Shown piece by piece: positions 1 through 23,279 of a DNA stretch of 64,000 bases (its first letter is position 1; the number at the start of each line of letters is the position of its first letter). Made by a program: the position numbers and the translations under genes. A model generated the notes under the pieces. It had not been told where the DNA came from, searched no databases, and saw nothing but the letters and a program-made list of their open reading frames with translations. The DNA comes from Burkholderia pyrrocinia (GTDB taxonomy: Bacteria > Pseudomonadota > Gammaproteobacteria > Burkholderiales > Burkholderiaceae). The DNA lies in NCBI RefSeq assembly GCF_018417535.1, contig NZ_CP070978.1, positions 3,243,719-3,307,718 of the forward strand. Direction: 5' to 3'.

Positions 1-3000
1 GCGCTGGGTAGTGGGTCGACGGCGTCCGCAGACCAGGGCACAGCACTCGGAGCCAGTTCGAATGCGAGCGGGGACGAGGCGACGGCGACAGGCTTCGCCG
101 CCACTGCTAGCAATACTTTCGCTTCGGCGTTTGGTCCTAGTGCCACCGCTTCCGGCCGCGGCTCGACGGCACTAGGCTTCGTGACAGAAGCATCTGGGGC
201 GGGGGCGACCGCGCTAGGTATGCAGTCGACCGCCGCTGGGGATAGTTCTACTGCGTTGGGCAATAATTCCAAGGCGTTGGCGCAATCGACGGTCGCACTG
301 GGCGATAACAGCACGGTGGATGCGACCGCCGGCCAAGGTTCGATCGCTGCCGGCGCCCAGTCGGAGGTAACGTCGGGCACGGGCGCCGTTGCGCTTGGCT
401 ATCAGCAGACGGCGAGCGGTGACGGTGCCGTGGCTATCGGCGATCCGAACACCGCGACGGGCACGGGCGCGGTAGCCGTGGGTGCGAACAACACCGCAAC
501 TGGTACGGGCGCGGTCGCGCTAGGCAACTCGAACGTGGCTGCGGGTACGGGTTCAGTTGCCCTCGGCAGCACTTCGACGGCAGCGGCAACGGGCGCGGTC
601 GCCTTGGGCTCGGGTGCAACTGCGGCCAATGCAGGCGATGTTGCTCTGGGTTCGGGTTCGGTGACGGCAGCAGCCAACCCAACCGCGAGCGGGACGATTG
701 GCGGCACCACTTATAGCTACGCTGGCACCAGTCCGACCAGCGTGGTGAGCGTCGGCAGTGCCGGTGCGGAACGGCAGATCACGAACGTAGCGGCCGGGCA
801 GGTGAGCGCGACGAGCACCGACGCGATCAACGGCTCGCAACTGTTTGCGACCAACCAGGCGATCGACACCTTGTCGACCTCGACTTCGACGGGGATCAGT
901 TCGCTCTCCACAGGACTGTCGACGACCAATAGCAACGTCGCGTCGCTGTCGACCTCGACCTCGACGACGGCCAGCTCGTTGTCGACGGGGCTGAGCACGA
1001 CGAACAGCTCGGTATCGTCGCTGTCCACCTCGAGCTCGACTGCGGAAAGCTCGTTGTCGACGGGGCTGAGCACGACGAACAGCTCGGTATCGTCGCTGTC
1101 GACCTCGAGCTCGACGGCGGAAAGCTCGTTGTCGACTGGCCTGAGCACGACCAACAGCACGGTATCGTCGCTGTCGACTTCGAGCTCGACTGCGGAAAGC
1201 TCGCTGTCGACGGGCCTGAGCACGACGAATAGCACGGTGTCGTCGTTGTCGACCTCGAGCTCGACTGCGGAAAGCTCGCTGTCGACTGGCCTGAGCACGA
1301 CGAACAGCGCGGTTGGGTCGCTGTCGACTTCGACCTCGACGACGGCCAGCTCGTTGTCGACGGGCCTGAGCACGACGAACAGCACGGTATCGTCGCTGTC
1401 CACCTCGAGTTCGACGGCGGAAAGCTCGTTGTCGACTGGCCTGAGCACGACGAACAGCACGGTATCGTCGCTGTCGACGTCGAGCTCGACGGCGGAAAGC
1501 TCGTTGTCGACGGGCCTGAGCACGACGAACAGCTCGGTATCGTCGCTGTCGACCTCGAGCTCGACGGCGGAAAGCTCGCTGTCGACGGGTCTGAGCACGA
1601 CGAACAGCTCGGTGTCGTCGCTGTCGACCTCGACTTCGACGACGGAAAGCTCGCTGTCGACGGGCCTGAGCACGACGAATAGCACGGTCTCGTCGCTGTC
1701 GACCTCGAGCTCGACGGCGGAAAGCTCGCTGTCCACGGGTCTGAGCACGACGAACAGCACGGTTGGGTCGCTGTCGACTTCGACCTCGACGACGGCCAGC
1801 TCGTTGTCGACGGGCGTCAGCTCGCTGTCCACGGGTCTGAGCACGACCAACAGCACGGTGTCGTCGTTGTCCACCTCGAGCTCGACTGCGGAAAGTTCGT
1901 TGTCGACGGGCGTTAGCTCGCTGTCCACGGGTCTGAGCACGACGAATAGCACGGTCTCGTCGCTGTCCACCTCGAGTTCGACGGCGGAAAGCTCGTTGTC
2001 CACGGGCGTTAGCTCACTGTCCACGGGTCTGAGCACGACGAATAGCACGGTGTCGTCGTTGTCGACCTCAAGCTCGACGGCGGAAAGCTCGTTGTCGACG
2101 GGCCTGAGCACGACGAACAGCACGGTATCGTCGCTGTCGACCTCGACTTCGACGACGGAAAGCTCGCTGTCGACGGGCCTGAGCACGACGAACAGCTCGG
2201 TGTCGTCGCTGTCGACTTCGAGCTCGACGGCGGAAAGCTCGCTGTCGACGGGTCTGAGCACGACGAACAGCGCGGTTGGGTCGCTGTCGACCTCGACCTC
2301 GACGACGGCCAGCTCGTTGTCGACGGGGCTGAGCACGACGAACAGCACGGTCTCGTCGCTGTCCACCTCGAGCTCGACGGCGGAAAGCTCGTTGTCGACG
2401 GGGCTGAGCACGACCAACAGCACGGTATCGTCGCTGTCGACTTCGAGCTCGACGGCGGAAAGCTCGCTGTCGACGGGCCTGAGCACGACGAACAGCTCGG
2501 TATCATCGCTGTCGACTTCGACTTCGACGACGGAAAGCTCGCTGTCGACGGGTCTGAGCACGACGAACAGCTCGGTGTCGTCGCTGTCCACCTCGACTTC
2601 GACGACGGAAAGCTCGCTGTCGACGGGCCTGAGCACGACGAATAGCACGGTCTCGTCGCTGTCCACCTCGAGCTCGACGGCGGAAAGCTCGCTGTCGACG
2701 GGTCTGAGCACGACGAACAGCTCGGTATCGTCGCTGTCGACTTCGACTTCGACGACGGAAAGCTCGCTGTCGACGGGTCTGAGCACGACGAACAGCTCGG
2801 TGTCGTCGCTGTCGACTTCGAGCTCGACTGCGGAAAGCTCGCTGTCGACTGGCCTGAGCACGACGAACAGCACGGTCTCGTCGCTGTCGACTTCGAGCTC
2901 GACGGCGGAAAGCTCGTTGTCGACGGGTCTGAGCACGACCAACAGCTCGGTATCGTCGCTGTCGACCTCGACTTCGACGACGGAAAGCTCGCTGTCGACG

Positions 3001-6000
3001 GGTCTGAGCACGACGAACAGCGCGGTTGGGTCGCTGTCGACTTCGACCTCGACGACGGCCAGCTCGTTGTCGACGGGCCTGAGCACGACGAACAGCACGG
3101 TATCGTCGCTGTCGACTTCGAGCTCGACGGCGGAAAGCTCGTTGTCCACGGGCGTTAGCTCGCTGTCGACGGGTCTAAGCACGACGAACAGCACGGTCTC
3201 GTCGCTGTCGACCTCGACTTCGACGACGGAAAGCTCGCTGTCGACGGGCCTGAGCACGACGAATAGCACGGTCTCGTCGCTGTCGACCTCGAGCTCGACG
3301 GCGGAAAGCTCGTTGTCGACGGGCGTCAGCTCGCTGTCGACGGGCCTGAGCACGACGAATAGCACGGTGTCGTCGTTGTCCACCTCGAGCTCGACGGCGG
3401 AAAGCTCGTTGTCGACGGGTCTGAGCACGACGAACAGCACGGTCTCGTCGCTGTCGACTTCGAGCTCGACGGCGGAAAGCTCGCTGTCGACGGGCCTGAG
3501 CACGACGAACAGCTCGGTGTCGTCGCTGTCGACTTCGAGCTCGACGGCGGAAAGCTCGCTGTCGACGGGCCTGAGCACGACGAACAGCGCGGTTGGGTCG
3601 CTGTCGACTTCGAGCTCGACTGCGGAAAGCTCGTTGTCGACGGGTCTGAGCACGACCAACAGCACGGTTGGGTCGTTGTCGACGGGCCTGAGCACGACGA
3701 ACAGCACGGTCTCGTCGCTGTCGACCTCGACTTCGACGACGGAAAGCTCGCTGTCGACGGGCCTGAGCACGACGAACAGCACGGTATCGTCGCTGTCGAC
3801 TTCGAGCTCGACTGCGGAAAGCTCGCTGTCGACGGGTCTGAGCACGACGAACAGCTCGGTATCGTCGCTGTCCACCTCGAGCTCGACTGCGGAAAGCTCG
3901 TTGTCGACGGGCCTGAGCACGACAAATAGCACGGTGTCGTCGTTGTCCACGTCGAGTTCGACTGCGGAAAGCTCGTTGTCGACGGGCCTGTCGACGACGA
4001 ACAGCACGGTTGGGTCGCTGTCGACTTCGACCTCGACGACGGCCAGCTCGCTGTCGACGGGTCTGAGCACGACGAACAGCACGGTCTCGTCGTTGTCCAC
4101 CTCGAGCTCGACGGCGGAAAGCTCGTTGTCGACGGGCGTTAGCTCGCTGTCCACGGGTCTGAGCACGACGAACAGCACGGTGTCGTCGTTGTCCACCTCG
4201 AGCTCGACTGCGGAAAGTTCGTTGTCGACGGGCGTTAGCTCGCTGTCGACGGGTCTGAGCACGACCAACAGCACGGTATCGTCGCTGTCGACCTCGACTT
4301 CGACGACGGAAAGCTCGCTGTCGACGGGCCTGAGCACGACGAACAGCACGGTATCGTCGCTGTCGACTTCGAGCTCGACTGCGGAAAGCTCGCTGTCGAC
4401 GGGTCTGAGCACGACGAACAGTTCGGTGTCGTCGCTGTCGACTTCGAGCTCGACGGCGGAAAGCTCGCTGTCGACGGGTCTGAGCACGACGAACAGCTCG
4501 GTATCGTCGCTGTCCACCTCGAGTTCGACGGCGGAAAGCTCGTTGTCGACGGGCGTCAGCTCGCTGTCGACGGGTCTGAGCACGACCAACAGCACGGTCT
4601 CGTCGCTGTCGACTTCGAGCTCGACGGCGGAAAGCTCGTTGTCGACGGGCGTCAGCTCGCTGTCGACGGGCCTGTCGACGACGAACAGCGCGGTTGGGTC
4701 GCTGTCGACTTCGACCTCGACGACGGCCAGCTCGTTGTCCACGGGTCTGAGCACGACGAACAGCACGGTCTCGTCGCTGTCCACCTCGAGTTCGACGGCG
4801 GAAAGCTCGCTGTCGACGGGTCTGAGCACGACGAACAGCACGGTGTCGTCGTTGTCCACTTCGAGCTCGACGGCGGAAAGCTCGCTGTCGACTGGCCTGA
4901 GCACGACGAACAGCACGGTTGGGTCGCTGTCGACTTCGACCTCGACGACGGCCAGCTCGTTGTCGACGGGCGTCAGCTCGCTGTCGACGGGTCTGAGCAC
5001 GACCAACAGCACGGTCTCGTCGCTGTCGACCTCGAGCTCGACGGCGGAAAGCTCGTTGTCCACGGGCCTGAGCACGACGAACAGCGCGGTTGGGTCGTTG
5101 TCGACTTCGACCTCGACGGCGGCCAGCTCGCTGTCGACGGGCCTGTCGACGACGAACAGCACGGTTGGGTCGCTGTCGACTTCGACCTCGACGACGGCCA
5201 GCTCGTTGTCCACGGGTCTGAGCACGACGAACAGCACGGTATCGTCGCTGTCCACCTCGAGCTCGACGACGGCCAGCTCGTTGTCGACGGGCGTTAGCTC
5301 GCTGTCCACCGGTCTGAGCACGACGAATAGCACGGCGTCGTCGTTGTCGACCTCGACTTCGACGGCGGAAAGCTCGCTGTCGACGGGCCTGAGCACGACG
5401 AACAGCACCGTGTCGTCTCTGTCGACCTCGACCAGCTCGCTGTCCACGGGGGTGAGTTCGCTGTCGACCGGTTTGAGCACGACCAACAGCAACGTGTCGT
5501 CGTTGTCGACGCAGACTTCGACGACGGCGAGTTCGCTGTCCACGGGGATGAGCTCACTGTCGACCGGTCTGTCGACCACGAACAGCTCCGTGTCGTCGCT
5601 GTCCACGACCGTGAGTTCGATCACGAACAATACGGCATCGGTATCGACCTCGGTTTCGACGATCGCGAGTTCGCTGTCGACGGGCCTGTCGACGACGAAC
5701 AGCTCGGTCGGGTCGCTGTCGACCTCGACGTCGACGACGGCCAGTTCGCTGTCGACCGGTCTGAGCTCGCTGTCGACCGGGTTGTCGACGACGAACAGCA
5801 ATGTCTCATCGCTGTCCACGTCGAGCTCCACGGCAGTTGTGTCGCTGTCCACGCTGATCTCGAAGTCGGAAACGCACTATCTGAGCGTGAACGATAACGG
5901 GACCCAGCAGGCCAACTACACCAACGACGGTGCGACCGGTACGAACGCGCTTGCGTTCGGCCCGTCCGCAACGGCTGCGGGCACGAATGCGATCGCGATC

Positions 6001-6510
6001 GGCAACGGCGCGAATGCCGCCGCCGAAGGGGCGACGGTCGTCGGCGCGAACGCGCTCGGGTCCGGTACCAACGCGACCGCGCTCGGCACGAACGCAACCG
6101 CCAGCGCAGCGAATTCGGTTGCGCTGGGTGCCGGGTCGATCGCGAGCGAGGCCAATACCGTCTCCGTCGGTTCGGCGGGCAACGAGCGGCGCATCACGAA
6201 TGTCGCGGCGGGCGTGAATCCGACCGATGCGGTGAACGTGTCCCAGTTGAACGCCGTGCAGTCGGGCGTCAGCAACGTCGCTCGTCGAGCCTACTCGGGT
6301 GTCGCCGGCGCCGCTGCGCTGACGATGATTCCGGAAGTCGATCTCGGCAAGACGATCGCAGTCGGTGTCGGTAGCGCGACGTACCAGGGTTATGCCGCCG
6401 TTGCGTTGGGCTTCTCGGCGCGCTTGACGAACAACGTCAAGATCAAGGGCGGCTTCAGCAGCAGCAGCTCCGGGTACACGGTCGGCGGCGGTATCAGCTA
6501 CCAGTGGTAA
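1..6510 (+). CDS. Trimeric autotransporter adhesin (YadA/Hep_Hag family), 5'-truncated by window edge
   Basis: Surface adhesin of type Vc secretion; the frame is open from base 1 (ALGSGSTASA...), so the true start lies upstream and the GTG at 181 is internal. In-window layout by residue: left-handed beta-roll head repeats (ALG-x-x-x-x-A pattern) to about 225; a first neck (AGAERQITNVAAG, DAINGSQLF) near 250-285; a Ser/Thr-rich repeat stalk to about 1950; a second short head; a second neck (AGNERRITNVAAG) near 2055-2085; and a C-terminal YadA-type anchor (YSGVAGAAALTMIP ... GGGISYQW) to 2169. The terminal aromatic residue is typical of outer-membrane beta-barrels. The downstream genes look dedicated to its export or modification. 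Family assignment is firm; ligand is unknown. Confidence 0.95.
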   Translation, partial: ALGSGSTASADQGTALGASSNASGDEATATGFAATASNTFASAFGPSATASGRGSTALGFVTEASGAGATALGMQSTAAGDSSTALGNNSKALAQSTVALGDNSTVDATAGQGSIAAGAQSEVTSGTGAVALGYQQTASGDGAVAIGDPNTATGTGAVAVGANNTATGTGAVALGNSNVAAGTGSVALGSTSTAAATGAVALGSGATAANAGDVALGSGSVTAAANPTASGTIGGTTYSYAGTSPTSVVSVGSAGAERQITNVAAGQVSATSTDAINGSQLFATNQAIDTLSTSTSTGISSLSTGLSTTNSNVASLSTSTSTTASSLSTGLSTTNSSVSSLSTSSSTAESSLSTGLSTTNSSVSSLSTSSSTAESSLSTGLSTTNSTVSSLSTSSSTAESSLSTGLSTTNSTVSSLSTSSSTAESSLSTGLSTTNSAVGSLSTSTSTTASSLSTGLSTTNSTVSSLSTSSSTAESSLSTGLSTTNSTVSSLSTSSSTAESSLSTGLSTTNSSVSSLSTSSSTAESSLSTGLSTTNSSVSSLSTSTSTTESSLSTGLSTTNSTVSSLSTSSSTAESSLSTGLSTTNSTVGSLSTSTSTTASSLSTGVSSLSTGLSTTNSTVSSLSTSSSTAESSLSTGVSSLSTGLSTTNSTVSSLSTSSSTAESSLSTGVSSLSTGLSTTNSTVSSLSTSSSTAESSLSTGLSTTNSTVSSLSTSTSTTESSLSTGLSTTNSSVSSLSTSSSTAESSLSTGLSTTNSAVGSLSTSTSTTASSLSTGLSTTNSTVSSLSTSSSTAESSLSTGLSTTNSTVSSLSTSSSTAESSLSTGLSTTNSSVSSLSTSTSTTESSLSTGLSTTNSSVSSLSTSTSTTESSLSTGLSTTNSTVSSLSTSSSTAESSLSTGLSTTNSSVSSLSTSTSTTESSLSTGLSTTNSSVSSLSTSSSTAESSLSTGLSTTNSTVSSLSTSSSTAESSLSTGLSTTNSSVSSLSTSTSTTESSLSTGLSTTNSAVGSLSTSTSTTASSLSTGLSTTNSTVSSLSTSSSTAESSLSTGVSSLSTGLSTTNSTVSSLSTSTSTTESSLSTGLSTTNSTVSSLSTSSSTAESSLSTGVSSLSTGLSTTNSTVSSLSTSSSTAESSLSTGLSTTNSTVSSLSTSSSTAESSLSTGLSTTNSSVSSLSTSSSTAESSLSTGLSTTNSAVGSLSTSSSTAESSLSTGLSTTNSTVGSLSTGLSTTNSTVSSLSTSTSTTESSLSTGLSTTNSTVSSLSTSSSTAESSLSTGLSTTNSSVSSLSTSSSTAESSLSTGLSTTNSTVSSLSTSSSTAESSLSTGLSTTNSTVGSLSTSTSTTASSLSTGLSTTNSTVSSLSTSSSTAESSLSTGVSSLSTGLSTTNSTVSSLSTSSSTAESSLSTGVSSLSTGLSTTNSTVSSLSTSTSTTESSLSTGLSTTNSTVSSLSTSSSTAESSLSTGLSTTNSSVSSLSTSSSTAESSLSTGLSTTNSSVSSLSTSSSTAESSLSTGVSSLSTGLSTTNSTVSSLSTSSSTAESSLSTGVSSLSTGLSTTNSAVGSLSTSTSTTASSLSTGLSTTNSTVSSLSTSSSTAESSLSTGLSTTNSTVSSLSTSSSTAESSLSTGLSTTNSTVGSLSTSTSTTASSLSTGVSSLSTGLSTTNSTVSSLSTSSSTAESSLSTGLSTTNSAVGSLSTSTSTAASSLSTGLSTTNSTVGSLSTSTSTTASSLSTGLSTTNSTVSSLSTSSSTTASSLSTGVSSLSTGLSTTNSTASSLSTSTSTAESSLSTGLSTTNSTVSSLSTSTSSLSTGVSSLSTGLSTTNSNVSSLSTQTSTTASSLSTGMSSLSTGLSTTNSSVSSLSTTVSSITNNTASVSTSVSTIASSLSTGLSTTNSSVGSLSTSTSTTASSLSTGLSSLSTGLSTTNSNVSSLSTSSSTAVVSLSTLISKSETHYLSVNDNGTQQANYTNDGATGTNALAFGPSATAAGTNAIAIGNGANAAAEGATVVGANALGSGTNATALGTNATASAANSVALGAGSIASEANTVSVGSAGNERRITNVAAGVNPTDAVNVSQLNAVQSGVSNVARRAYSGVAGAAALTMIPEVDLGKTIAVGVGSATYQGYAAVALGFSARLTNNVKIKGGFSSSSSGYTVGGGISYQW
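868..5850 (+). repeat. Coding tandem repeat array, 75-bp unit, encoding adhesin stalk
   Basis: Roughly 60 imperfect copies of a 75-bp unit encoding 25 residues. The unit splits into STGLSTTNSTVSSL (14 residues) and STSSSTAESSL (11 residues). Some copies carry exactly 7 extra residues (STGVSSL), for example near 1815, 1905 and 3150, and one near 3660-3700 lacks the 11-residue half. Leu/Val/Ala spacing fits a trimeric coiled coil made of two heptads plus one hendecad. Variation is mostly S/T swaps and synonymous GTCGAC/GTCCAC changes. The array is prone to recombination and to short-read collapse, so copy number here may be unreliable. Confidence 0.93.
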
Positions 6511-6597: not shown

Positions 6598-7284
6598 ATG
6601 ACGAAAATAATGACCACGCTGCTTCTGGCGGCAGTGGTGCTTGCCGGTTGCTCCTCGGCATCGGGTCCAACGTTCGATGCGTATACGGTGACGCTGCCGA
6701 ACCAGCAACAGGCGTATCGCGTGCAGTGCGACGGTTTGCTGGAAGGGCAAGGTATCTGCGATACCAAGGCCCGCGAAATCTGCGGCAACGTCCAGGTTCG
6801 CCCGATCCAGGCAATCGCGCCTTATGCGGGCGGCTCCGGCGTGCGCGAGTTGACGTTCCAGTGCGGCGTGCCGCCACAGCCGGCGCCTCAACCGCAGCCG
6901 GCGCCTCAACCGGTAGCGGCGCCCATGCCGCCGCCGTCTCCGCCGCAAAAAATCACGCTCAGCGGCGACGCCAACTTCGAAGTCGATAAAGCCAATCTCA
7001 CGGCCGACGCTCGCTCGCGCCTGGACCAGCTCGTTGCGCAGGCACGGGGCATGCCGTTCCGCAACGTGACGGTAGACGGCTACACCGACTCGACCGCTTC
7101 GGTCGCGCACAACCTGGCGTTGTCGGAGCATCGCGCGCAGACCGTGGCTGCCTATCTGCGCGAGCACGGTCTGAACGCCCAGCGGTTTGTCGCGAACGGC
7201 TTTGGCAAGGCGAATCCGGTCGCCTCGAATGCAACTGCGATTGGCCGCGCACAGAACCGGCGCGTCGAGATCCAGCTGGATTAA
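6598..7284 (+). CDS. OmpA-family peptidoglycan-binding lipoprotein
   Basis: 228 aa. A lipoprotein signal peptide ends in the lipobox LAGC (Cys18), so the mature protein should be lipidated. Residues about 30-90 form a small N-terminal domain. About 93-120 is a Pro/Ala/Gln-rich linker (PAPQPQPAPQP). The C-terminal domain, about 122-228, is OmpA-like, with DGYTDSTAS, LSEHRAQTVAAYL and a closing GRAQNRRVEI, which binds peptidoglycan. An AGAGG-type RBS sits 5 bases before the ATG. It is the first gene after the adhesin, 87 bases downstream, and probably anchors the adhesin or its export site to the cell wall (inference). Confidence 0.9.
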   Translation: MTKIMTTLLLAAVVLAGCSSASGPTFDAYTVTLPNQQQAYRVQCDGLLEGQGICDTKAREICGNVQVRPIQAIAPYAGGSGVRELTFQCGVPPQPAPQPQPAPQPVAAPMPPPSPPQKITLSGDANFEVDKANLTADARSRLDQLVAQARGMPFRNVTVDGYTDSTASVAHNLALSEHRAQTVAAYLREHGLNAQRFVANGFGKANPVASNATAIGRAQNRRVEIQLD

Positions 7285-7431: not shown

Positions 7432-8577
7432 ATGCGTATCGGGATTTCAGTGCTGACCCATGCCGGACAGAGTGTCTGGGAAAACGGGTTGGGCCAGAAC
7501 GTTTTCTTTTTAGTTCAACTGCTGCAAAAGATTCCGTTCGTGACGGAAATCGTGCTGCTGAACTGCGGCGACCAGCGTCATGTCGCGTCTGAGGCTGGCG
7601 ACGCGCTGCCGGGCATCCGGCTCGTCGCGCCGCGCGACGCCACGGATCTCATCGACCTTGTCTTCGAGATGGGAGGCGGGCTCGATGTCGAATGGCTCGA
7701 CCATATTCGTGCGCGCGGCAAGAAGGTCGTTTTCTTCTGCTGCGGGCAGCCTTATGCAGGGCTGATCGAGCCGACCGTATTCAAGAAAAACGGCTATTTC
7801 TCGCGGGCAACGCGCTGCGACGAGGTCTGGATGCTGTCGAAAGATCGCGCATTCGCACCGATGTTGCGCGCACTGCATCGATGCCCGGTTGTCGAGGTTC
7901 CGTTTCTCTGGGATCCCGTCTTCATCGAGCAACGAATCCGCACGGTCGAGGCGGCCGGCCTGCAGTTCGGCTATCAGGTGATGCCGGAACCGATCTCGCC
8001 GCGGCGGCTGCGGACGGCGATCTTCGAACCGAACATCTCGGTGGTCAAGTGCTGCACGATTCCGCTGCTCATTTGCGACGTGGCATTCCGGCGCGACGCG
8101 GCGTCGATCGAGCGCGTTCACGTGCTTAACAGCATCCATATGAAAGATCATCCGACCTTTTCGTTCCTGACCAGTTCGCTGGCGTTGAACGAAAACGGAA
8201 AACTGTGCCTCGATCAGCGGCACGACTTCGTCGGCTATATCAGCCAATACGGCGACGCGATCGTCGCGCATCAATGGCATAACGACCAGAACATCGCCTA
8301 CCTCGATGCGCTTTATGGCGGCTACCCCCTGATTCATAACTCGCCATGGCTCGAGGCGGTCGGCTATTACTACCCCGATTCGAATGTCGAAGAGGGCGCG
8401 GGGCAGCTTCTGAATGCCGCGTACATGCACGACTTAGCACACGAAGATTACGTGACGCAAGCGCGCGGCTTCCTGGCGCAGCTCAGTCCCGACCATCCCC
8501 GAAACCAGTCGGACTATGCGAGAGCATTGCTCGCGCTCGTCGCATCCGGCGGCAAACACGTAACCGGACGGGAATAA
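7432..8577 (+). CDS. DUF2827 family protein, copy 1 (possible GT-B-like glycosyltransferase)
   Basis: 381 aa, no signal peptide or membrane segment, presumably cytoplasmic. It begins MRIGISVLTHAGQSVWENGL, the start shared by the three paralogues here, which I recognise as DUF2827. Conserved points are IFEPNISVVKCCTIPLL near 200, HQWHNDQNIAYLDALYGGYP near 280, then LIHNSPWLEAVGYYYPD. The GGYPLIHNS...GYYYPD region resembles the nucleotide-sugar-binding end of GT-B glycosyltransferases; this is my inference, since the family has no assigned function that I know of. Two bases separate it from the next copy, so they are surely co-transcribed. Confidence 0.82.
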   Translation: MRIGISVLTHAGQSVWENGLGQNVFFLVQLLQKIPFVTEIVLLNCGDQRHVASEAGDALPGIRLVAPRDATDLIDLVFEMGGGLDVEWLDHIRARGKKVVFFCCGQPYAGLIEPTVFKKNGYFSRATRCDEVWMLSKDRAFAPMLRALHRCPVVEVPFLWDPVFIEQRIRTVEAAGLQFGYQVMPEPISPRRLRTAIFEPNISVVKCCTIPLLICDVAFRRDAASIERVHVLNSIHMKDHPTFSFLTSSLALNENGKLCLDQRHDFVGYISQYGDAIVAHQWHNDQNIAYLDALYGGYPLIHNSPWLEAVGYYYPDSNVEEGAGQLLNAAYMHDLAHEDYVTQARGFLAQLSPDHPRNQSDYARALLALVASGGKHVTGRE

Positions 8578-8579
8578 CC

Positions 8580-9701: not shown

Positions 9702-10339
9702 AACATATTCGGAAGCTCATCGAGAAATCCACGCGCCCCCAGTTCGCGAGCATGTCGGACCGGCGTCGAGGCTGGACTCGTATCGCATCGCTCGGGCTGC
9801 TGCTTGCTGCCGTGTCGACGTCTTTCGCGCAACCGTTGCCGGGGCAGGCGGGCGGTGTCGATGCACGCCAGGGGCCGCTGGAGCCGCCCAGTACGGTGCT
9901 CGCGGCAGCGGCGATGAGGGCCGGCGTGCGCCGTTGCTATCCGATCATCAACGCGGTATCGGGTCGAACGTTCGCGGGCACCGAACATAACGACGTCGTG
10001 CTCGACTGGGATCGAGCCAACCCTGACGTGGCGCCGTTTTTTTCGCTGTCGGGCCTCGATTACGGCCGGGGAGCCGCGCTGTTGTCGCTGACAACCTCGT
10101 CCGTCGAAACCGGATGTGCGGTGTTGGTCGAGCGGATCTCGAGCGCGCCATTGCCGTGCAGGGAAGTCGCGCGCTCCGAGTTGTCCAGCTACCGCGCAGG
10201 GCCGCTCGTCAAATCCGTCACCGTCTACACAAATCCGGCGCATCCGCGCGAGACCGTGACACTCCTCGAGGCACCGCCGTCCTGCGTCATTGTCAGGCGG
10301 CAGGTTCAGTACCCCGCTAGGACGATGGATACGCAATGA
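9698..10339 (+). CDS. Exported protein of unknown function between DUF2827 genes
   Basis: 213 aa, start overlaps the preceding stop (ATGA). The N-terminus is unusual: about 25 charged residues (MKHIRKLIEKSTRPQFASMS) precede a hydrophobic stretch IASLGLLLAAVSTSFA that looks like a signal peptide with an AQ cleavage point near 45, so a later start may be used. The rest has paired cysteines (RRCYPI, TGCAVLVE, LPCREVA, PPSCVIVR) that could form disulfides in the periplasm. I do not recognise a family. Its place inside the DUF2827 run points to a periplasmic partner of adhesin biogenesis (inference). Confidence 0.75.
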   Translation: MKHIRKLIEKSTRPQFASMSDRRRGWTRIASLGLLLAAVSTSFAQPLPGQAGGVDARQGPLEPPSTVLAAAAMRAGVRRCYPIINAVSGRTFAGTEHNDVVLDWDRANPDVAPFFSLSGLDYGRGAALLSLTTSSVETGCAVLVERISSAPLPCREVARSELSSYRAGPLVKSVTVYTNPAHPRETVTLLEAPPSCVIVRRQVQYPARTMDTQ

Positions 10340-12827: not shown

Positions 12828-12869
12828 AACGAGGCCTAACCGATCGGGATGGAATCACTGGAGCATCTT

Positions 12870-15072: not shown

Positions 15073-17052
15073 TTGAAAACTATCGATCTCGTTCAGGCGG
15101 TGACCACGACGTTCGCGCACCTGGCGCGCGAGCAGGTGTCGGCGCAAATCGGGCTGGCGCCGGACGTTGTGCATAACGTCATTGAACGGAGTACCGCTGC
15201 GCTCACGGCATCGCTGATCGAGCACAGCAGAACGCCGCAGGGATTGGCGTCGGCATTCGGTGCCATCATGTCGACGACCGCCAACCCGCGTATCGCCGAG
15301 CAACTCGGCTCGTTGGTGGCCGGCACCGCAGGCCTCAAGGAACTGGAAGCGAGTGGTACCGCGTTGAGCGAGCGTGCGACACAGCGGCGAATTGCCGTGC
15401 TCAGCGATCCAATTTCGATGCAAACCGGCGTACCGCCGCAGGCGACCCACGTGCTCGCTGCACTAGCCTCGGCGGTCGCGTGCGGCCTGATCAAATATCA
15501 GTTGCTGCTCGATCAGGGTGCCGTAAATGATCTCGCACAGCTGTTGCGTCTTCAAATCCCGTCAGTCGCCCCGTTTATGACCGACGAGATGGCCCAATGC
15601 ATCGGCTTCGCCAGCGCACGGGAGTTTATCGATTCGATCGAGTTGCCGACGGTGGCGCCCGATTCGAAAGAAGCCGGCGCTACGCCGGCATACAGGCCGG
15701 TCAACGCCCCTGTCAGCGCGACGGTCAACGCGGCTACGACCACTGCACCGCGCTCACCCGCCACGAGTCCTGCATCGTTGCCCCAGCAGGCCGTCGTGTC
15801 GTCCAAACAAACTGCGGCTACGCCGGTTTTTTCGCCAAAATTGGCTCCGAAAACGCCGCCGGTCGAGACCGCAGGTGAAGAAACGCACACCGCGACGCCG
15901 CAGCCTGAAGCGGCTTTCGAACGCAAGCCGCAACAACGTCGTCGCCGATCCGGGCGTGGCATGACCTGGTTGCTTCTGCTGCTTGCGGTCGGTGCAGCGG
16001 CAGCGTTTGCGTACGCGCAAACACATCAAGGCTTCCAGAATTTGACGCTGTCGTCGACTGCTGGCACTCAGCAAGCGTCAACGCCGGCGCAAAGTGCGTC
16101 ATCCGCGGTCGTGGACTCCATGGAACAGAAGCCTGCGGCGCCCGACAAAACGTCTTCGTCTTCGTCTTCGTCTTCGTCTTCGTCCGCGTCTGCGGCGCCG
16201 CCGCCGGGCACCGCATCTGCGCCCGTCATGCTGACGGACCAGAACGCAGTCGAACACGACGCCGTAGCCGATTCAGCGATGGCCATGCGTGTTGATGGCG
16301 CTGGCGTTCCGCATATTTTCGCGACGGTGGCAAACGATGAGCAGCGCCAGAAATTGATAAATCTCCTCAACGACAAGTTCGTCGCGGGCCACTTCGACGC
16401 CGATGTGACGATCACACCCGGTGCGCGTGCAGACTGGCTTGAGCACGTCGATGCGTTGCTGTCGCTCGTGACGGTTCATGACGCGGAGCTGGCGTTACGT
16501 TCAAGAGCGATCGAGCTGGCAGGGCCAGCCGCGGAGGGGCAGCGTGGATGGATTGCGCGATTGCAGCAAGCGTTCGGTTCGCAATGGCAGGTTTCGGCAT
16601 TCGATGCGGCAACGAGTGTCGGGCAAGCGACGCAGGTATTCCGCCGCGAATTGGCCAAGACCGTCGATGGCGGTCATCCATGCACGCCGAGTGAGGTCGC
16701 ACGCGTGCTTAATCTCCAGGTGATCGATTTCGCGCGATCAAGCGGCCACGTGCCAGCATCGGCTAAGGAGAATCTCGATGACGCGGCACTACTGCTCAAG
16801 ACGTGCGCGAACGTAGGTCATCCGATCAAGTTCGAGATCGCCGCTTTCACGGACAACGCGGGTGATGCCCAGGCGCTTCTTCAACTTTCCCAGAAGCGCG
16901 CCGACGCGGTCCGTGCCCATCTCGTCGGAGCCGGCGTACCTGCTGCGTTGCTGACTTCGAAAGGCTATGGGGCTGACCGGCCGCTGGCGAACAATCTTAC
17001 GAGCATCGGGCGGTTCGCCAACCGGCGCGTCGAGTTTATCTCGCACGAATGA
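15073..17052 (+). CDS. Large OmpA-family protein with cytoplasmic-type N-terminal domain
   Basis: 659 aa, TTG start supported by GGAG at 15064-15067, 5 bases upstream. Residues 1-190 are a helical domain that resembles DUF937 (VVHNVIERSTAALTASLIEH). About 195-290 is a Pro/Thr/Ala-rich linker. A single membrane segment lies near 297-315 (MTWLLLLLAVGAAAAFAYA). Then come a low-complexity Ser run and an OmpA-like C-terminal domain from about 550 (AAFTDNAGDAQALLQLSQKR, SIGRFANRRVEF). The topology suggests an inner-membrane protein reaching across the periplasm to peptidoglycan, like a stator or scaffold. Its stop overlaps a possible ATG of the next gene. Confidence 0.82.
   Translation: MKTIDLVQAVTTTFAHLAREQVSAQIGLAPDVVHNVIERSTAALTASLIEHSRTPQGLASAFGAIMSTTANPRIAEQLGSLVAGTAGLKELEASGTALSERATQRRIAVLSDPISMQTGVPPQATHVLAALASAVACGLIKYQLLLDQGAVNDLAQLLRLQIPSVAPFMTDEMAQCIGFASAREFIDSIELPTVAPDSKEAGATPAYRPVNAPVSATVNAATTTAPRSPATSPASLPQQAVVSSKQTAATPVFSPKLAPKTPPVETAGEETHTATPQPEAAFERKPQQRRRRSGRGMTWLLLLLAVGAAAAFAYAQTHQGFQNLTLSSTAGTQQASTPAQSASSAVVDSMEQKPAAPDKTSSSSSSSSSSSASAAPPPGTASAPVMLTDQNAVEHDAVADSAMAMRVDGAGVPHIFATVANDEQRQKLINLLNDKFVAGHFDADVTITPGARADWLEHVDALLSLVTVHDAELALRSRAIELAGPAAEGQRGWIARLQQAFGSQWQVSAFDAATSVGQATQVFRRELAKTVDGGHPCTPSEVARVLNLQVIDFARSSGHVPASAKENLDDAALLLKTCANVGHPIKFEIAAFTDNAGDAQALLQLSQKRADAVRAHLVGAGVPAALLTSKGYGADRPLANNLTSIGRFANRRVEFISHE
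16153..16182 (+). repeat. (TCTTCG)5 in-frame microsatellite in OmpA-like gene
   Basis: Five perfect TCTTCG hexamers encode a Ser run in the periplasmic linker just after the membrane segment. Because the unit is 6 bases, slippage would change linker length by two serines without breaking the frame. Confidence 0.85.
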
Positions 17053-17108
17053 AATGGAGCATGGGTTTGTCATTTCTGAATCGACGTCGAGAATTAAGGA
17101 GATTGATC

Positions 17109-17831
17109 GTGAAGCTGCATCCGAGTACACAACCGGTCTTGACCGAGGACCTTTCACCGGATGAGGCCATGCTTGTTACGGTCGAAACGAGCGACGCGAT
17201 GCACGAACCGGCGCCGTTAAGTGATGCCACGCCTGTCGCGCAGGCCGTGTCTCCATTGCGTCCCGCGAATGCAGCTACGCCGCAAGGCGCAAGCCGAATG
17301 GTGCAGGCCGTAGAGATCGCGACGATCGAGGCATTGAGCGCGCAACAAGCGTTGATTTCATTCAGGACTCTGCAGGCGTTTTCCTACTCTGCGAATCTGC
17401 TGTTTCACCATACAGCGCTCTCGTACTACATCACGCTTTCTCAAGATGGGCGCCTGTGGCGAGCGTTGCACGCGGACGATTTCGAATCGGCTGAAGCGGC
17501 ATTTCGGAGTTTCGAGGAACAGGCGGTGCGACTGGCGGACGCGGAATTGAGGCGTGCGTACCTGGAAGCGCAGAACCGGCAGTTCGCGGCTGCGATCGAG
17601 GCATCGGAGGCGCTGGCCGAGCGACTACGAAACGATCTCGAGTCCCATGCTGCGCAAACGCAACTCGTGACTACCCGTCAGCAGCATTTGCGCAAGGAAG
17701 TTGCCCAGCTCGAGATGCAACGGGCCGGAGCGAAAGCGCATCTGAACAAGACGTCGAGACAAATTCACCAACTGCGCGCGGCGAGCAACGAGCTGGTTCC
17801 GCACTTGACCAAACGCAGAGCGGAATCCTGA
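17109..17831 (+). CDS. DUF2968 family coiled-coil protein
   Basis: 240 aa from GTG 17109, chosen because AAGGAG (17096-17101) sits 7 bases upstream; an in-frame ATG at 17049 overlaps the previous stop but has no RBS. Residues about 75-225 match my memory of DUF2968: SYSANLLFHHTALSYYITLS, then a long charged coiled coil (RRAYLEAQNRQFAAAIEAS ... LRKEVAQLEMQRAGAKAHL). Neither start gives a signal peptide, which is odd, since I recall family members as exported. Function is unknown; a coiled-coil scaffold or chaperone for the stalk is conceivable. Confidence 0.72.
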   Translation: MKLHPSTQPVLTEDLSPDEAMLVTVETSDAMHEPAPLSDATPVAQAVSPLRPANAATPQGASRMVQAVEIATIEALSAQQALISFRTLQAFSYSANLLFHHTALSYYITLSQDGRLWRALHADDFESAEAAFRSFEEQAVRLADAELRRAYLEAQNRQFAAAIEASEALAERLRNDLESHAAQTQLVTTRQQHLRKEVAQLEMQRAGAKAHLNKTSRQIHQLRAASNELVPHLTKRRAES

Positions 17832-18037: not shown

Positions 18038-18085
18038 TTAGGTCGAGTAATCGATTCATAAAAAATTCCGTTATAGGAAAACAAC

Positions 18086-18337: not shown

Positions 18338-18340
18338 CGC

Positions 18341-18537: not shown

Positions 18538-18663
18538 ATGCGTTATCCCGTGAGCGTATCGATTGTGCTCTTCGCCTTGGCCGGATGCGGAATGTTCGGT
18601 TGCGGCGGTGTTGCCACGAATGGAGCGACGGCAGCCGGATGCCACGCCGGCGTGCGGTTTTGA
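18538..18663 (+). CDS. Tiny putative lipoprotein
   Basis: 41 aa: MRYPVSVSIVLFALAGCGMF begins a short hydrophobic signal and lipobox LAGC (Cys17), followed by only 24 residues rich in Gly with two more cysteines (Cys22, Cys35). The size is like entericidin-type small lipoproteins, but I see no direct match. RBS is weak (GAGTAACGAAGC before the ATG). It lies 31 bases before the H-NS-type gene and may be its leader gene. Confidence 0.5.
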   Translation: MRYPVSVSIVLFALAGCGMFGCGGVATNGATAAGCHAGVRF

Positions 18664-18694
18664 CGGAACGCCATGTCGAATAAAAGGAGAAGAC

Positions 18695-18985
18695 ATGTCG
18701 ATTGATCCCCTGCAGGCCCTGTTGACGAGGCGAGCCCAGCTAGATGCCGAGATCGCCGCACAACGCGCGGTACGGCGTAGGGAGGTTGTCGATCAGATCG
18801 TACGGTTGATGCAGGAATACGAAATTACCGTCCGGGAAATTGAGTCACGCACTTCGCGTGCGTCGTCGCGTCGGGTCGAGCCGCGATATTGGGATCCCCA
18901 AACCGGTGCGACGTGGTCGGGCCGGGGCAAACGACCGCGGTGGATGAATGGGCGTGACCCGGAGGAATTCAGGCTCAAACCTTAG
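18695..18985 (+). CDS. H-NS family nucleoid-associated DNA-binding protein
   Basis: 96 aa from ATG 18695 with AAAAGGAGA upstream. The N-terminal half is a coiled-coil oligomerisation region (RRAQLDAEIAAQRAVRRREV). The C-terminus carries the H-NS DNA-binding core WDPQTGATWSGRGKRPRWM. Such proteins silence AT-rich acquired DNA. It sits at the junction to a visibly more AT-rich stretch and next to an OmpR-type regulator, so local control of the adhesin locus is likely (inference). Confidence 0.92.
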   Translation: MSIDPLQALLTRRAQLDAEIAAQRAVRRREVVDQIVRLMQEYEITVREIESRTSRASSRRVEPRYWDPQTGATWSGRGKRPRWMNGRDPEEFRLKP

Positions 18986-19119: not shown

Positions 19120-19887
19120 GTGTTTACATTTTCGCTCTGCGAGCGATCTGAAGCGACGTGCGCGATTTTGGACAGAGATTCCGGACGATTCAGCGAAGCT
19201 CGCGATGCTCTTTCTGGCGCGGGCTACGAGTGTATCCGGTTCGATACTGACCTCTTGCTGCAGGCATATATCAGGTCAGCGAGTGTCGACTTTGTGGTAG
19301 TGGGAGACCCCGTGCAAGCGGAGCCTCTCGATGTGCTGGTTGCCGAACTTCGCGTCGATCCGGCAACGTGCACAGTGCCGGTGGTGGTCCTCGGGCCGGA
19401 CGATGAGGATCGCACGGTCGCCATGCTGACCGCCGGTGCGGATGTATATCTCGCATGGCCAACCCCTTCACGCCTGTTTGTCGCGCGCATCCGCGCTCTT
19501 CTGCGTCGCGTCTACCACACGTACCCACGAGCGACTAGGCGATCGCACGGTGTCTATACGTTTTACACGGGCGCCGATCAAGTTTGTCTGAATGGGGAGC
19601 GGATCTCGCTAACACGCATGGAGTATCGCGCGGCGATGTTGCTGTTCGCGCGCATTTCCCGGTTGGTGACGTATACGGATCTCTGGATGGCGATGTGGGA
19701 AGGTATATCGAGAATGGAGCCGCAGCGGCGAACCGTGTGTGTTCATATGTCGCGTTTGCGCTCGAAACTTAGATTGACCGGCGAGTGCGGGTACCAGTTG
19801 ATATCTGTTCGCGGTTCCGGTTATCAACTCGTTCCATCGGTCAGCGGATTCGAGCGAGAAATGATGTCGCAGGTGGTGAATTTCTGA
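19120..19887 (+). CDS. OmpR-type transcriptional regulator with degenerate receiver domain
   Basis: 255 aa, GTG start overlapping a purine-rich GGGAAGGGGG. Residues about 12-125 have the receiver fold, but key residues are missing: the phospho-acceptor region reads VDFVVVGDP, with Gly where Asp is expected; the Ser/Thr site reads VVVLGPDD; and the usual Lys is Trp (YLAWPTPSRLF). Residues about 150-240 are a winged helix of the OmpR/PhoB type (LTRMEYRAAMLLF, VHMSRLRSKL, ISVRGSGYQLV). No histidine kinase gene is adjacent. It should act without phosphorylation (inference). Confidence 0.85.
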   Translation: MFTFSLCERSEATCAILDRDSGRFSEARDALSGAGYECIRFDTDLLLQAYIRSASVDFVVVGDPVQAEPLDVLVAELRVDPATCTVPVVVLGPDDEDRTVAMLTAGADVYLAWPTPSRLFVARIRALLRRVYHTYPRATRRSHGVYTFYTGADQVCLNGERISLTRMEYRAAMLLFARISRLVTYTDLWMAMWEGISRMEPQRRTVCVHMSRLRSKLRLTGECGYQLISVRGSGYQLVPSVSGFEREMMSQVVNF

Positions 19888-19906
19888 GGTGCGACAGGAA
19901 TATGAA

Positions 19907-19946
19907 AACATACGGTCAGGCTGTAACAGTCAACGGTCCGTATGTT
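19907..19946. repeat. Inverted repeat downstream of OmpR-type gene
   Basis: AACATACGG (19907-19915) and CCGTATGTT (19938-19946) are perfect inverted copies, 11 of 12 if flanks are included, with a 22-base spacer containing CTGTAACAG. It lies 20 bases after the regulator stop. It could be an operator for the regulator or an RNA hairpin. The rest of 19888-20206 holds only a weak open frame (ATG 19902, 98 codons, poor RBS) that I do not call. Confidence 0.55.
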
Positions 19947-20206
19947 CTCGTCGAGGCTCGGCACGGAACGATACTTACGAACCGATGCGACGAATTCATC
20001 GGTTACGAGTTGATCGAATGCCGTCGGGTTGCGACGAAATCGTCGACGCGAAACTTCATCCGTTGGCCACATGCCGAATCCAATAGTGAATCAACCACAT
20101 CGAACGCACCGCGCAGCACCGGAGCTCACACGGTATCGTGGAAGCCGCGGCGCTTGCTTGTGGGCGGCTCGATGTCTTCCGGCGTTGCGAGCGAGTAGTT
20201 AAGATC

Positions 20207-22068
20207 ATGTCTGAAAGCGATGGCAATAATCCTGGAGCACGCGTGGCGGAAGAGTTCAGCGCAGGCGTGGTCGCACATCGGGAAAACTCATTTGCCGTGG
20301 CGGAACAATGCTATCGAGAAGCCATTGCGATCGATCCTGGTCATGCAGAAGCTCACAATAACCTCGGCATTCTGGTGGAGCTTTCGGGATGCGCCGACGA
20401 GGCGGAAGCACATTACCGGAATGCGTTGTCAGGGAGGCCAAGTTGCACCGATGCGCATTGCAACATGGGTCTGCTACTGCATTCCGGAGGGTATCTGGCG
20501 GAAGCGGAAGTCTGCTATCGGCGAGCCATTTTGGTCAATCCAGAGCATGCGATCGCGCATAACAAGCTGGGCCTTGTTCTTCAATCGACCGGACGACGAT
20601 TGGATGCCGAATGTCACTTTCGCTACGCGTTGAAGTCGGTACCGCATGATGCGGATGTGCTGGCGAATCTTGGCGCGGTGCTGCATCAGGACGGCCGCTG
20701 TCAGGAGGCAGAGACATACTATCGCAAGGCGATAGAGTGCGCCCCGTTGCTTGCCCGTGCCCATCGGAATCTTGGCGTATTGCTTCATCAGCTCGGACGG
20801 GAACTTGAAGCGGAAGCGTGTTTTCGGCGCGCGATCTCGTTCGACCCGAGTTGTCTCGATGCTCACGGCAATCTCGGCAACCTGCTTTATGGAACACAAC
20901 GCTACTCCGATGCAGAGGCCTGTTATCGAACAGTACTCGAACAGTCACCGGATTCCGTCGAGGCAATCAACAACCTGGGACGCGTGCTGCAGGACAGCGG
21001 ACGTCTCGCGGAGGCCGAGCAGTGCTTTCGTCGAGTACTTATGCTCGCCCCGGAACGGCGTCCGACGGCATTCAATTTGACTCTGGTCTTGCTTGCGATG
21101 GGGTGTTACGAGGAAGGCTGGCCGCTCTATGAGGCGCGTTATGACGCATCGTGTTATTGGGGCGAGGATGCATCGTGCCATGAGCGTCCGGCGTTGCCTT
21201 GTCGGGAATGGCGTGGCGAGCCGCTGGAAGGAAGATCGCTCGTCGTAGTACATGAACAAGGGCTCGGGGACTCTTTGCATTTTTGTCGCTACCTGCCTCT
21301 GCTGAAGGCGCTTGGCGTACGGCGCCTGAGTGTAATCTGCCCGACAGCGTTGCGTAGGGTGATCGAGTCAATCGAGGGTGTGGATTCGTGTTATACGACC
21401 GACGAACTCGGTTCGCTATCGGTACATGACTTTGCCTGTGTGATGATGAGCTTGCCGCTACGGTTTGGGACGACGCTCGAGACGATTCCAGGCGGCGTGC
21501 GCTACATTCGACCGGCGGAGGGGCTAACGTCAGAGTGGACGATGCGGTTGCCGACACATGGTCTCAGGGTCGGACTCGTTTGGGCGGGCGATTCGCGCCC
21601 GGAGCAGGCCAACGCGAATTCCATCGATCGGAGGCGGTCGTTTCATGCGAGCATGTATCTCCCGTTACTAGAGGTGCGGGCGCGATTTTCGTCAGCCTGC
21701 AGAAGGGAGAAGCCGCAAGGCAGCAGATTGCCGCGTTTCCGGCAACGCGGCGTCCAGTGGATTTCATGAGTGACGTGGTCGATTTCGCGGATACGGCTGC
21801 AATCATCGAAAATCTGGATCCGGTCGTCACGGTCGACACGTCGGTCGCTCATCTCGCCGGTGCGCTTGGAAAGCCGGTATGGATCTTGTCGCGATTCGAC
21901 CGGTGCTGGCGCTGGTTATCGAATCGCGACGATTCACCGTGGTACCCGACGGCGCGGCTGTTCAGGCAACGTTCACCAGGTGATTGGGAACAGGTTATCG
22001 CGGAGGTTGCGATCGCGCTGCAGGCGCTTGTCGGCCATATACGTTCACCATTTCTGGAGTCATGTTGA
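20207..22068 (+). pseudogene. TPR plus GT9-like glycosyltransferase gene, split by a frameshift near 21680
   Basis: From ATG 20207 (MSESDGNNPGARVAEEF) the frame encodes about nine TPRs (AEAHNNLGILVELSG and similar), then VVVHEQGLGDSLHFCRYLPL near 350 and LRVGLVWAGD near 455. The homologous reading then jumps frame at the GTGCGGGCGCG around 21674-21684: the continuation FVSLQKGEAARQQIAAFP, VDTSVAHLAGALGKPVWIL and SPWYPTARLFRQ lies in the other frame and stops at 22068. Loss of one G in the GGG run explains it. The two products would be about 520 and 130 residues, neither with a complete transferase domain. It is either a real lesion or a sequencing error. It is a paralogue of the gene at 12870. 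Confidence 0.85.
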
Positions 22069-23279
22069 GCTCATCGAGCACGGATCGTTATTGGTCCCGC
22101 GCCAGGCGGGTCGGTTGTGTAGTATCCACGTCAATGCTTCTGATCGGCATTTGTCCCACGGTGAGTGCAGACGAGGCCAGATCATTCGTACATCCAGGCA
22201 TGCTTCATACGCAGCGAGATTTTGACCGCATGCGCTCCAAAGTCGAGCAAGGAGATCAACCATGGGCCGACGGTTGGCGCAAGCTCGTCGCCAACCGTCA
22301 TGCGTCGGTGAACTGGAAGCCCAATCTACAGGCGACTGTGTATAGAGGCTCGGATCACCGTCACGCGCAAAATTATCCGGCGCTCTACAACGATGCCGCC
22401 GCAGCATATGTGCTGGCATTGCGCTGGAAGATCTCAGGTGACGACGCGTATGCGGACAAGGCTGTCGCGATCCTGAATGCGTGGTCGTCGACGCTAACCT
22501 CGATTGACGGCAGCTCGGACAAATTTCTGGCTGCCGGGATCTATGGCTATCAGCTGGCAAACGCTGCCGAGATCCTGCGCGGGTTCTCGCGTTGGAACCC
22601 GGCCGATTTCGAGCGCTTCCGATCGATGATGCTGACGGTCTTCTACCCGATGAATCATGATTTCCTGATTCGTCACAACGGAGCGAAAGTCGATCATTAT
22701 TGGGCGAACTGGGACCTTGCGAACATGACGTCTATGCTTGCGATCGGCGTACTTGCGGATCGGCGGGACATCTACAACGAGGCAGTCGATTATTTCCGGC
22801 ATGGCGCGGGAAATGGGTCTATCGAGCACGCGATCTGGAGAGTCTATGACGGTGGAATTGCCCAGGTGCAGGAGAGCGGCCGCGACCAGGGTCACACCAT
22901 GCTTGATATAGCTCTGCTCGGGACGTTCTGCCAGATGGCCTGGAATCAGGGTGATGACTTGTTTGGCTACGATCACAACCGCGTGTTGCTCGGCGCCGAA
23001 TATGCTGCGCGTTACAACCGTGGACGCGATGTGCCGTACACGCCGTACAGCAACAGTGATGTCACGCAGGCTACGATATCTGACACAGGTCGGGGCGACA
23101 TGCGGCCAATATGGGCGTTACTCTACAACCATTACGTGGTGGTCAAGGGATTGAGCGCGCCCGATGTCAAGGCATTTGCAGACGCAGCCGGCACCGAAGG
23201 CGGTGGCGGAGACTATGGGCCCAATAGCGGGGGCTTCGATCAGCTTGGCTACGGCACACTGACTTTCACTTTGAAGTAG
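22062..23279 (+). CDS. Alginate lyase family protein, secreted
   Basis: 405 aa from ATG 22062, overlapping the preceding stop by 7 bases, with GGAG just upstream. A long signal peptide ends near ICPTVSA-DEA (about 37). The alpha/alpha toroid of the alginate_lyase family (PF05426) is recognisable: ALYNDAAAAYVLALRWKISG, NAWSSTL, GIYGYQLANAAEIL, NWDLANMTSMLAIG and the catalytic-region ESGRDQGHTMLD. Members cleave uronate polysaccharides by beta-elimination in the periplasm or outside the cell. In an adhesin locus it may trim exopolysaccharide. Coupling to the broken transferase gene upstream could reduce its expression. Confidence 0.85.
   Translation: MLSSSSTDRYWSRARRVGCVVSTSMLLIGICPTVSADEARSFVHPGMLHTQRDFDRMRSKVEQGDQPWADGWRKLVANRHASVNWKPNLQATVYRGSDHRHAQNYPALYNDAAAAYVLALRWKISGDDAYADKAVAILNAWSSTLTSIDGSSDKFLAAGIYGYQLANAAEILRGFSRWNPADFERFRSMMLTVFYPMNHDFLIRHNGAKVDHYWANWDLANMTSMLAIGVLADRRDIYNEAVDYFRHGAGNGSIEHAIWRVYDGGIAQVQESGRDQGHTMLDIALLGTFCQMAWNQGDDLFGYDHNRVLLGAEYAARYNRGRDVPYTPYSNSDVTQATISDTGRGDMRPIWALLYNHYVVVKGLSAPDVKAFADAAGTEGGGGDYGPNSGGFDQLGYGTLTFTLK

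Follow-up and report, generated by a model that had tools for sequence, protein, structure and literature searches.

The DNA analysed, hereafter the window, is a 64,000 bp stretch of the genome of Burkholderia pyrrocinia (C2:3243719-3307718 in a genome of three contigs and 8.54 Mb). Its left end carries the genes of a giant trimeric autotransporter adhesin (TAA) and of three proteins of the DUF2827 family, and this cluster is the subject of the present analysis. An earlier note, made from the letters alone, had placed there a Ser/Thr-rich trimeric autotransporter followed by the other genes on one strand. The YadA domains and the stalk described below bear this out, and all the cluster genes lie at the positions first assigned to them, every one on the + strand. 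The adhesin gene (1..6510) enters the window from the left, as its frame extends upstream to an ATG at about -1124, for a total of 2544 aa. Pfam matches in ORF (open reading frame) 181-6507 mark the YadA head (PF05658, E 7e-28), stalk (PF05662, E 2e-20) and anchor (PF03895, E 8e-16), and the protein is made by head repeats, a 1667-aa Ser/Thr stalk, a second head, a stalk and the anchor. The adhesin is followed by a lipoprotein with an OmpA domain (6598..7284; PF00691, E 6e-20), by DUF2827 a (7432..8577; PF10933, E 2.9e-109) and DUF2827 b (8580..9701; E 8.9e-131, measured on the longer ORF 8346-9698), by a small protein with a signal sequence recognized by eye (9698..10339, overlapping DUF2827 b by 4 bases), and by DUF2827 c (10395..11534; E 3.3e-133). 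Intergenic gaps from the adhesin through DUF2827 c measure -4 to 147 bases.

The stalk of the adhesin, measured from the first to the last SLST motif, is unusual in composition. Ser and Thr (703 and 408 residues, respectively) make up 66.6% of its 1667 aa, and D, E, K, R and H together account for just 49 residues. The most frequent units include SSLSTSSSTAE (11 residues), SSLSTGLSTTNSTV (14 residues) and SSLSTGV (7 residues), and the most frequent spacings between Leu, Ile, Val or Met residues are 3, 4, 7 and 11. Composition and spacing are as expected of a heptad/hendecad coiled coil, which would consist of nearly all Ser/Thr around a Leu/Val core. The N-terminus, read upstream of the window, is ESPR-like by eye; the Pfam ESPR match belongs to the second DUF2827-linked adhesin of the genome, a protein of 2758 aa with ESPR, stalk and anchor. 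SLST repeats are carried also by BoaA and BoaB (PMC2955633). O-glycosylation of such repeats has been raised in discussion for BCAM2418, with no enzyme named in the accessible part of that paper (PMC7142374).

The earlier note had viewed DUF2827 proteins as GT-B-like, and this holds for c, the member that was modelled. The AlphaFold2 model of DUF2827 c (pLDDT 88.6, pTM 0.88) retrieves GT-B proteins in fold searches, and the solved matches are BshA, TarM and SdgB, an adhesin-peptide GlcNAc-transferase. The predicted GT-B fold of c is close to certain; DUF2827 a and b are predicted GT-B glycosyltransferases via homology to c. The likeness is one of fold. No PDB chain was matched at E <= 10 by DUF2827 c, either as single sequence or as profile, and alignment of the DUF2827 profile with hhalign to six GT4 proteins encoded in this genome gave a probability of 9.5%. 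Assignment of DUF2827 to GT4 has been set aside, being devoid of sequence support. An alignment of 21 DUF2827 sequences, mostly c-type (the row L009:16840 has an over-long N-terminus), contains many columns in which a polar or aromatic residue never varies. By reading of the pattern in the same sequences, the second acidic residue (D/E) of the EX7E motif is retained and the first Glu appears to be missing. DUF2827 a, the sole member scanned against NCBIfam, received no name. The nearest named proteins reside in Burkholderia sp. BCC1988 and B. ubonensis (82-84% identity). In the literature searched, largely without subscription papers, DUF2827 surfaced only in a cysteine database paper, and otherwise no title or abstract start named it.

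DUF2827 genes are linked to Ser/Thr-rich trimeric adhesins, a link that the earlier note had made a test of its idea. The genome of origin (8.5 Mb) hosts DUF2827 at two sites and 9 YadA anchors; both DUF2827 sites adjoin YadA adhesins, which, with so few sites and anchors, is more than chance would give. Of 150 genomes sampled from the host's family, 40 gave a DUF2827 match, and anchors were surveyed in the B. pyrrocinia genome and in 12 of the 39 others, chosen mainly for few contigs. These 13 genomes contain 19 DUF2827 clusters, and 14 of the clusters have an anchor no more than 5 kb away (distances judged by eye), where 0.15 would be expected. All 13 clusters found in nine genomes of the same genus group pass this test. 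In a broader sample, made by the best 80 of 280 loci ranked by likeness to an alignment mostly of DUF2827 c, 59 named loci have an anchor scoring 20 bits or more (51 loci) or an ORF with at least 5 SLST motifs (54 loci). Neither was found in the other 21, 8 of which had less than 17.3 kb examined. ORFs with at least 5 SLST motifs were absent from six other stretches of the genome, where anchors were not scanned. An origin by chance or hitch-hiking, in which adhesin islands gather unrelated genes, is strongly disfavoured: genes for a resolvase and an EAL protein do lie upstream of the adhesin, but 14 adjacencies against 0.15, and a gene order conserved across bacterial classes in which b and c share 52-66% identity, speak against it.

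Linked adhesins differ in composition from the other adhesins of the same genomes. The Ser/Thr fraction ranges from 0.351 to 0.560 in the 13 linked adhesins of the nine genomes; in 36 unlinked adhesins it measures 0.503 in one (L167), 0.367 in another, and at most 0.325 in the others (Mann-Whitney p 2.1e-7). At least 5 SLST motifs occur in 13/13 linked and in 11/36 unlinked adhesins (Fisher 9.5e-6). The linked adhesins are partly orthologues, so both p-values are optimistic and overstate independence. The anchor model missed 14 of the 36 unlinked adhesins; these and L160 were read from Pfam coordinates, and two readings which are fragments or odd frames (L128 and L160) were retained among the 36. 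Within single genomes, all linked adhesins exceed all unlinked ones in Ser/Thr in 8 of 9 Burkholderia genomes, the exception being G141, via L167. A relative of the TPR (tetratricopeptide repeat) transferase described below (28% identity) is found about 3.6 kb upstream of the L167 adhesin gene.

The three DUF2827 genes form a conserved set. Of 100 loci (the 80 named and 20 further), 49 feature both a and c in tblastn searches. The order is a-b-c in 40 of them and a-b-c-c in 2, and the remaining 7 have other orders or strands. Searches with a hidden Markov model detected 298 DUF2827 proteins in 102 loci (the 100 plus the window and L009) and 71 same-strand triads. Some of the triads belong to a second arrangement, seen in Burkholderia, in which a c-like gene precedes b-like genes of the opposite strand, three of them in 23 loci and two in 4 loci. 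The counts 49, 71, 100 and 102 each include a few apparent duplicates (L176/L018, L177/L020, L186/L023, L183/L058). The other DUF2827 cluster of the B. pyrrocinia genome, with three b-side genes and one c-side gene, resembles this second arrangement. Named loci with triads of either type are 46 betaproteobacterial, 10 alphaproteobacterial and 1 gammaproteobacterial. Hosts of the triad include Paraburkholderia kururiensis, with three such loci (L018, L020 and L022), and strains of Novosphingobium and Methylobacterium. In a tree inferred by a quick method (LG+G4) the position in the triad changes 11 times; in 100 shuffles the minimum was 89 and the mean 101. In the 11 alpha- and gammaproteobacterial loci, identity to the window protein in the same position is 0.38-0.52 for a, 0.56-0.66 for b and 0.52-0.60 for c, against 0.27-0.35 among members of one triad. 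Same-position proteins are thus closer than triad partners, and a, b and c diverged before the copies of these lineages and were kept or moved as a set. The pattern suggests that they may carry out three different steps, rather than being three copies of one. A YadA-type adhesin accompanies 9 of these 11 triads (L030, L032, L069, L072, L076, L078, L080, L089, and L029, the latter by stalk and head only). L013, L014, L016 and L017 contain orphan c genes, which share about 75% identity with that of the window and have neither an a or b partner nor an adhesin in the 21 kb examined. A short ORF (L182:8833-9237) starts as a DUF2827 b-like and ends as a YadA anchor-like sequence, and is probably a deletion scar within such a cluster.

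Two TPR/GT9-like transferases had been proposed in the window. The first (12849..14744, with TPR matches in Pfam) is intact and GT9-like by fold, the second is broken. In the model of the intact protein (pLDDT 87.0, pTM 0.79) helices span residues 4-312, and a GT-B domain follows (330-610), which matches by fold GT9 proteins, WaaF and the autotransporter heptosyltransferase TibC. A profile of nine such glycosyltransferase (GT) domains retrieved no TibC among PDB sequences at E <= 1, only one unrelated chain (E 0.26), and comparison of the DUF2827 profile with TPR transferases (probability 4.9%) gave no sign of relation. The second gene (20138..22068) changes frame near 21.55-21.68 kb: ORF 20138-21769 is its front, the C-terminal part resides in ORF 21535-22068, and matches to GT domains of the same genome fall in two frames, as do tblastn matches obtained with the B. 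latens homologue. In B. latens L012 the set includes both TPR genes. In the stretches examined, a TPR transferase was found in 17 of the 49 loci that have a and c. The third adhesin cluster of the genome (G000:C3:83558-86109, L126) has a YadA adhesin and, convergent with it, a TPR transferase with 61% identity to the GT domain of the window protein, and no DUF2827. The other DUF2827 cluster hosts a 939-aa ORF (L009:13188-16010; uncertain start, overlapping a DUF2827 gene) in which an FkbM methyltransferase domain is joined to a diverged GT domain of the TPR-transferase type; the fusion is a hint that methylated glycans may be made. A transferase of the same TPR family is located in L191 (6640-8640) near a gene resembling, by eye, that of a flagellar cap protein, a neighbourhood which would fit a FlmG-like role on flagellin.

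Genes next to the triad are less constant. Homologues of the OmpA lipoprotein adjoin TAAs in L010, L123 and L196, the latter two without DUF2827 neighbours, so the lipoprotein is a general adhesin partner; specificity for the DUF2827 set was set aside on these grounds. The small protein recurs in 29/49 loci with a and c and in 3/12 surveyed genomes, and is found also beside the L196 adhesin, which lacks DUF2827; it is thus an adhesin partner. Neither Pfam nor NCBIfam recognized it. Downstream of DUF2827 c reside a parvulin-type peptidyl-prolyl isomerase with a lipoprotein-like signal by eye (11595..12473; Rotamase_2, PF13145, E 3.6e-11), a 106-aa ORF which, judged by eye, may encode a membrane protein (12507..12827) and has a counterpart of 106 aa at the equivalent place in L015, and, past the first TPR transferase, an OmpA-domain protein with a central hydrophobic segment seen by eye (15073..17052; PF00691, E 3e-13) and a weak DUF937-like N-terminal part (PF06078, E 7.6e-5, below cut-off). 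A DUF2968 protein (17049..17831; PF11180, E 3.5e-40) overlaps the latter gene by 4 bases, and is followed by an H-NS-like regulator (18563..18985; PF00816, E 3e-11), preceded by 731 bases, and by an OmpR/PhoB-type DNA-binding regulator (19120..19887; PF00486, E 1.6e-11). The first TPR transferase is flanked by gaps of 375 and 328 bases, the former containing the 106-aa ORF. A scan for promoters and terminators yielded no clear excess over shuffled sequences (4 vs 5.6, and 20 vs 17.0, sd 3.7).

The isomerase, the second OmpA protein, DUF2968 and the regulators had been included in the system. All are present in the window; among the 49 loci with a and c, in the stretch examined, homologues are found in only 10 (isomerase), 7 (second OmpA protein), 5 (DUF2968), 5 (H-NS-like) and 3 (OmpR-like), and these genes are accessory at most. 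The notion of a secretion site held by OmpA and isomerase proteins survives in part: the OmpA lipoprotein is TpgA-like in position and C-terminal domain, but its homologues flank also adhesins without DUF2827, and the isomerase is as rare as stated. The system had been extended to 23279, the end of a gene with an Alginate_lyase match (21984..23279; PF05426) located directly after the cluster and nameless in NCBIfam. A homologue (51%) lies near the Variovorax triad L077, one of the 49 loci. This is no strong evidence of membership, and the gene was left out.

Other genes of the surroundings were noticed. Upstream of the adhesin, L008:8422-9828 encodes a protein with a match to Glyco_transf_34 (PF05637); the family of this protein recurs in 12/84 stretches clustered, and another PF05637 match is embedded among the DUF2827 genes of L171. 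Related genes flank both adhesin clusters of the genome (L008:11143-12042, approximately -2576 to -1677 of the window, and L009:11691-12566); the L008 copy has a Pfam EAL match, and its family occurs in 29/84 stretches clustered. An ordinary tripartite RND efflux set (HlyD, AcrB-type, OEP) resides farther downstream in the window (43378-49305).

Taken as a whole, the cluster is probably a dedicated adhesin O-glycosylation module. This reading is based on the GT-B fold predicted for c, on the linkage seen in genomes, on the order in which the three subfamilies are conserved, and on the Ser/Thr enrichment of the linked adhesins; from them we infer catalytic activity, the adhesin as acceptor, O-linkage and sequential action, as well as roles for the OmpA lipoprotein, the isomerase and the small protein. 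The three DUF2827 proteins would be soluble, cytoplasmic GT-B transferases acting in sequence. Together with the GT9-like TPR transferase, where present, they would place a short glycan on the coiled-coil stalk, rich in Ser/Thr, and elongate it, the TPR protein adding a further or the initiating sugar. Glycosylation of the stalk would precede Sec export, and the trimer would assemble in the outer membrane afterwards. The OmpA lipoprotein would tie the anchor to peptidoglycan, as TpgA for AtaA.

Several observations weigh against the proposed module. No glycan has been seen on the adhesin. Of the 6 clusters outside the genus group, a single one has an anchor within 5 kb when anchors alone are counted, and the anchor in question (G051) is a 143-aa fragment; one of the five others, L170, faces a 2602-aa SLST adhesin which extends past the end of the stretch. 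No adhesin was found within the stretch examined in two alphaproteobacterial triads (L066, L068). Adhesins are lacking also next to the four orphan c genes, and to DUF2827 a/b pairs or single genes in L173, L175, L179 and L181. SLST stalks exist in some unlinked adhesins (the 11 counted above), L167 reaches a Ser/Thr fraction of 0.50, and the partial orthology of the linked ones reduces the force of the composition test. With a presence in 17/49 loci, the TPR transferase is no universal initiator, unless encoded elsewhere. The low hhalign probability against GT4 proteins is a further point, and the apparent loss of the first Glu of EX7E means that catalysis could be altered or absent.

The latter residue is also the starting point of the best surviving alternative, that one or more DUF2827 proteins are non-catalytic GT-B partners which hold the adhesin or stabilize the real transferase, the TPR protein. 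Gram-positive serine-rich adhesin systems include non-catalytic subunits, and the retention of three paralogues together would fit such a role. The many invariant polar and aromatic columns of the (mostly c-type) alignment point the other way, as does the absence of a TPR transferase from 32 of the 49 loci with a and c, in the stretch examined; we regard this alternative as unlikely. Somewhat less likely still is that the product of the DUF2827 proteins is a different glycan, either soluble or lipid-linked, and that they are encoded beside the adhesin because both serve biofilm life. DUF2827 genes without adhesins, and the alginate-lyase-like gene seen both in the window and near the Variovorax triad, would be accounted for in this way. 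Pfam recognized no polysaccharide exporter, flippase or polymerase among the cluster genes of the window, however, and neither the tight order beside adhesins across classes nor the enrichment of Ser/Thr in precisely the linked adhesins would be expected. N-linked glycosylation at N-X-S/T sequons, as performed by HMW1C/NGT on AtaC, is improbable. NST and NSS triplets do occur in the stalk repeat, and an autotransporter adhesin of Actinobacillus pleuropneumoniae is modified by NGT and a second transferase (PMC5303269). The share of Asn residues in sequons is 0.61 in the window adhesin, against a background of 0.53 set by Ser/Thr at +2, and the excess is clear in the linked adhesin of L134 (0.60 vs 0.35). 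Among the 13 linked adhesins, however, values fall both above and below background (0.18 vs 0.37 at the lower side), and sequon enrichment is not a general feature, which disfavours Asn-linked modification.

O-glycosylation of the stalk by the DUF2827 set may be compared with known systems. TibC and AAH are cytoplasmic enzymes, and their autotransporter substrate is a beta-helix. The catalytic domain of the window TPR transferase shares the fold of TibC, one of these autotransporter heptosyltransferases (BAHT; PMC4358343), but the protein has a TPR N-terminus and no sequence-profile match to TibC chains; moreover, the window cluster adds three GT-B enzymes, and their substrate would be a trimeric coiled coil. 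The flagellin O-glycosyltransferase FlmG (PMC7591256), soluble and cytoplasmic, has an N-terminal TPR region for the substrate and a C-terminal GT-B domain, and the window TPR transferase is alike in domain architecture; the FlmG substrate is flagellin. HMW1C/NGT enzymes belong to GT41, and the SdgA/SdgB and serine-rich-repeat adhesin systems serve Gram-positive surface proteins and export routes. DUF2827 c has no sequence match to any PDB chain. A cytoplasmic initiator and an extender, NGT/HMW1C and alpha6GlcT, act on the autotransporter adhesin AtaC, as proposed here for the stalk; the AtaC modification is N-linked, and its locus, in the accessible part of the paper, is without adhesin (PMC5303269). 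TpgA of Acinetobacter is a periplasmic peptidoglycan-binding protein which complexes with the anchor domain of AtaA, and TpgA-like pairs have been reported in Burkholderia (PMC13082670). The window OmpA lipoprotein resembles TpgA in its OmpA-type C-terminal domain (PF00691) and its place beside a TAA, the two features that the comparison covered.

As far as searches show, the enzyme set, its fold, the conserved order and the link to SLST stalks are new within the literature searched. The analysis provides a testable function for DUF2827, to which none had been assigned, and puts forward candidate enzymes for the O-glycosylation suggested for SLST-type Burkholderia adhesins. If the reading is true, type V secretion gains a three-enzyme route of protein glycosylation, the giant Ser/Thr coiled-coil stalks are explained, and a cytoplasmic enzyme set becomes usable for glycoengineering. 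More tentatively, a, b and c may represent three new GT-B families, distinct from one another and altered in the catalytic site. Each would add one sugar, and in alpha-, beta- and gammaproteobacteria alike they would build a conserved short O-glycan on trimeric adhesins with nearly uncharged stalks. Trimeric autotransporters would then have their first dedicated O-glycosylation machine, which would allow a coiled coil with hardly any charge to stay soluble and stiff.

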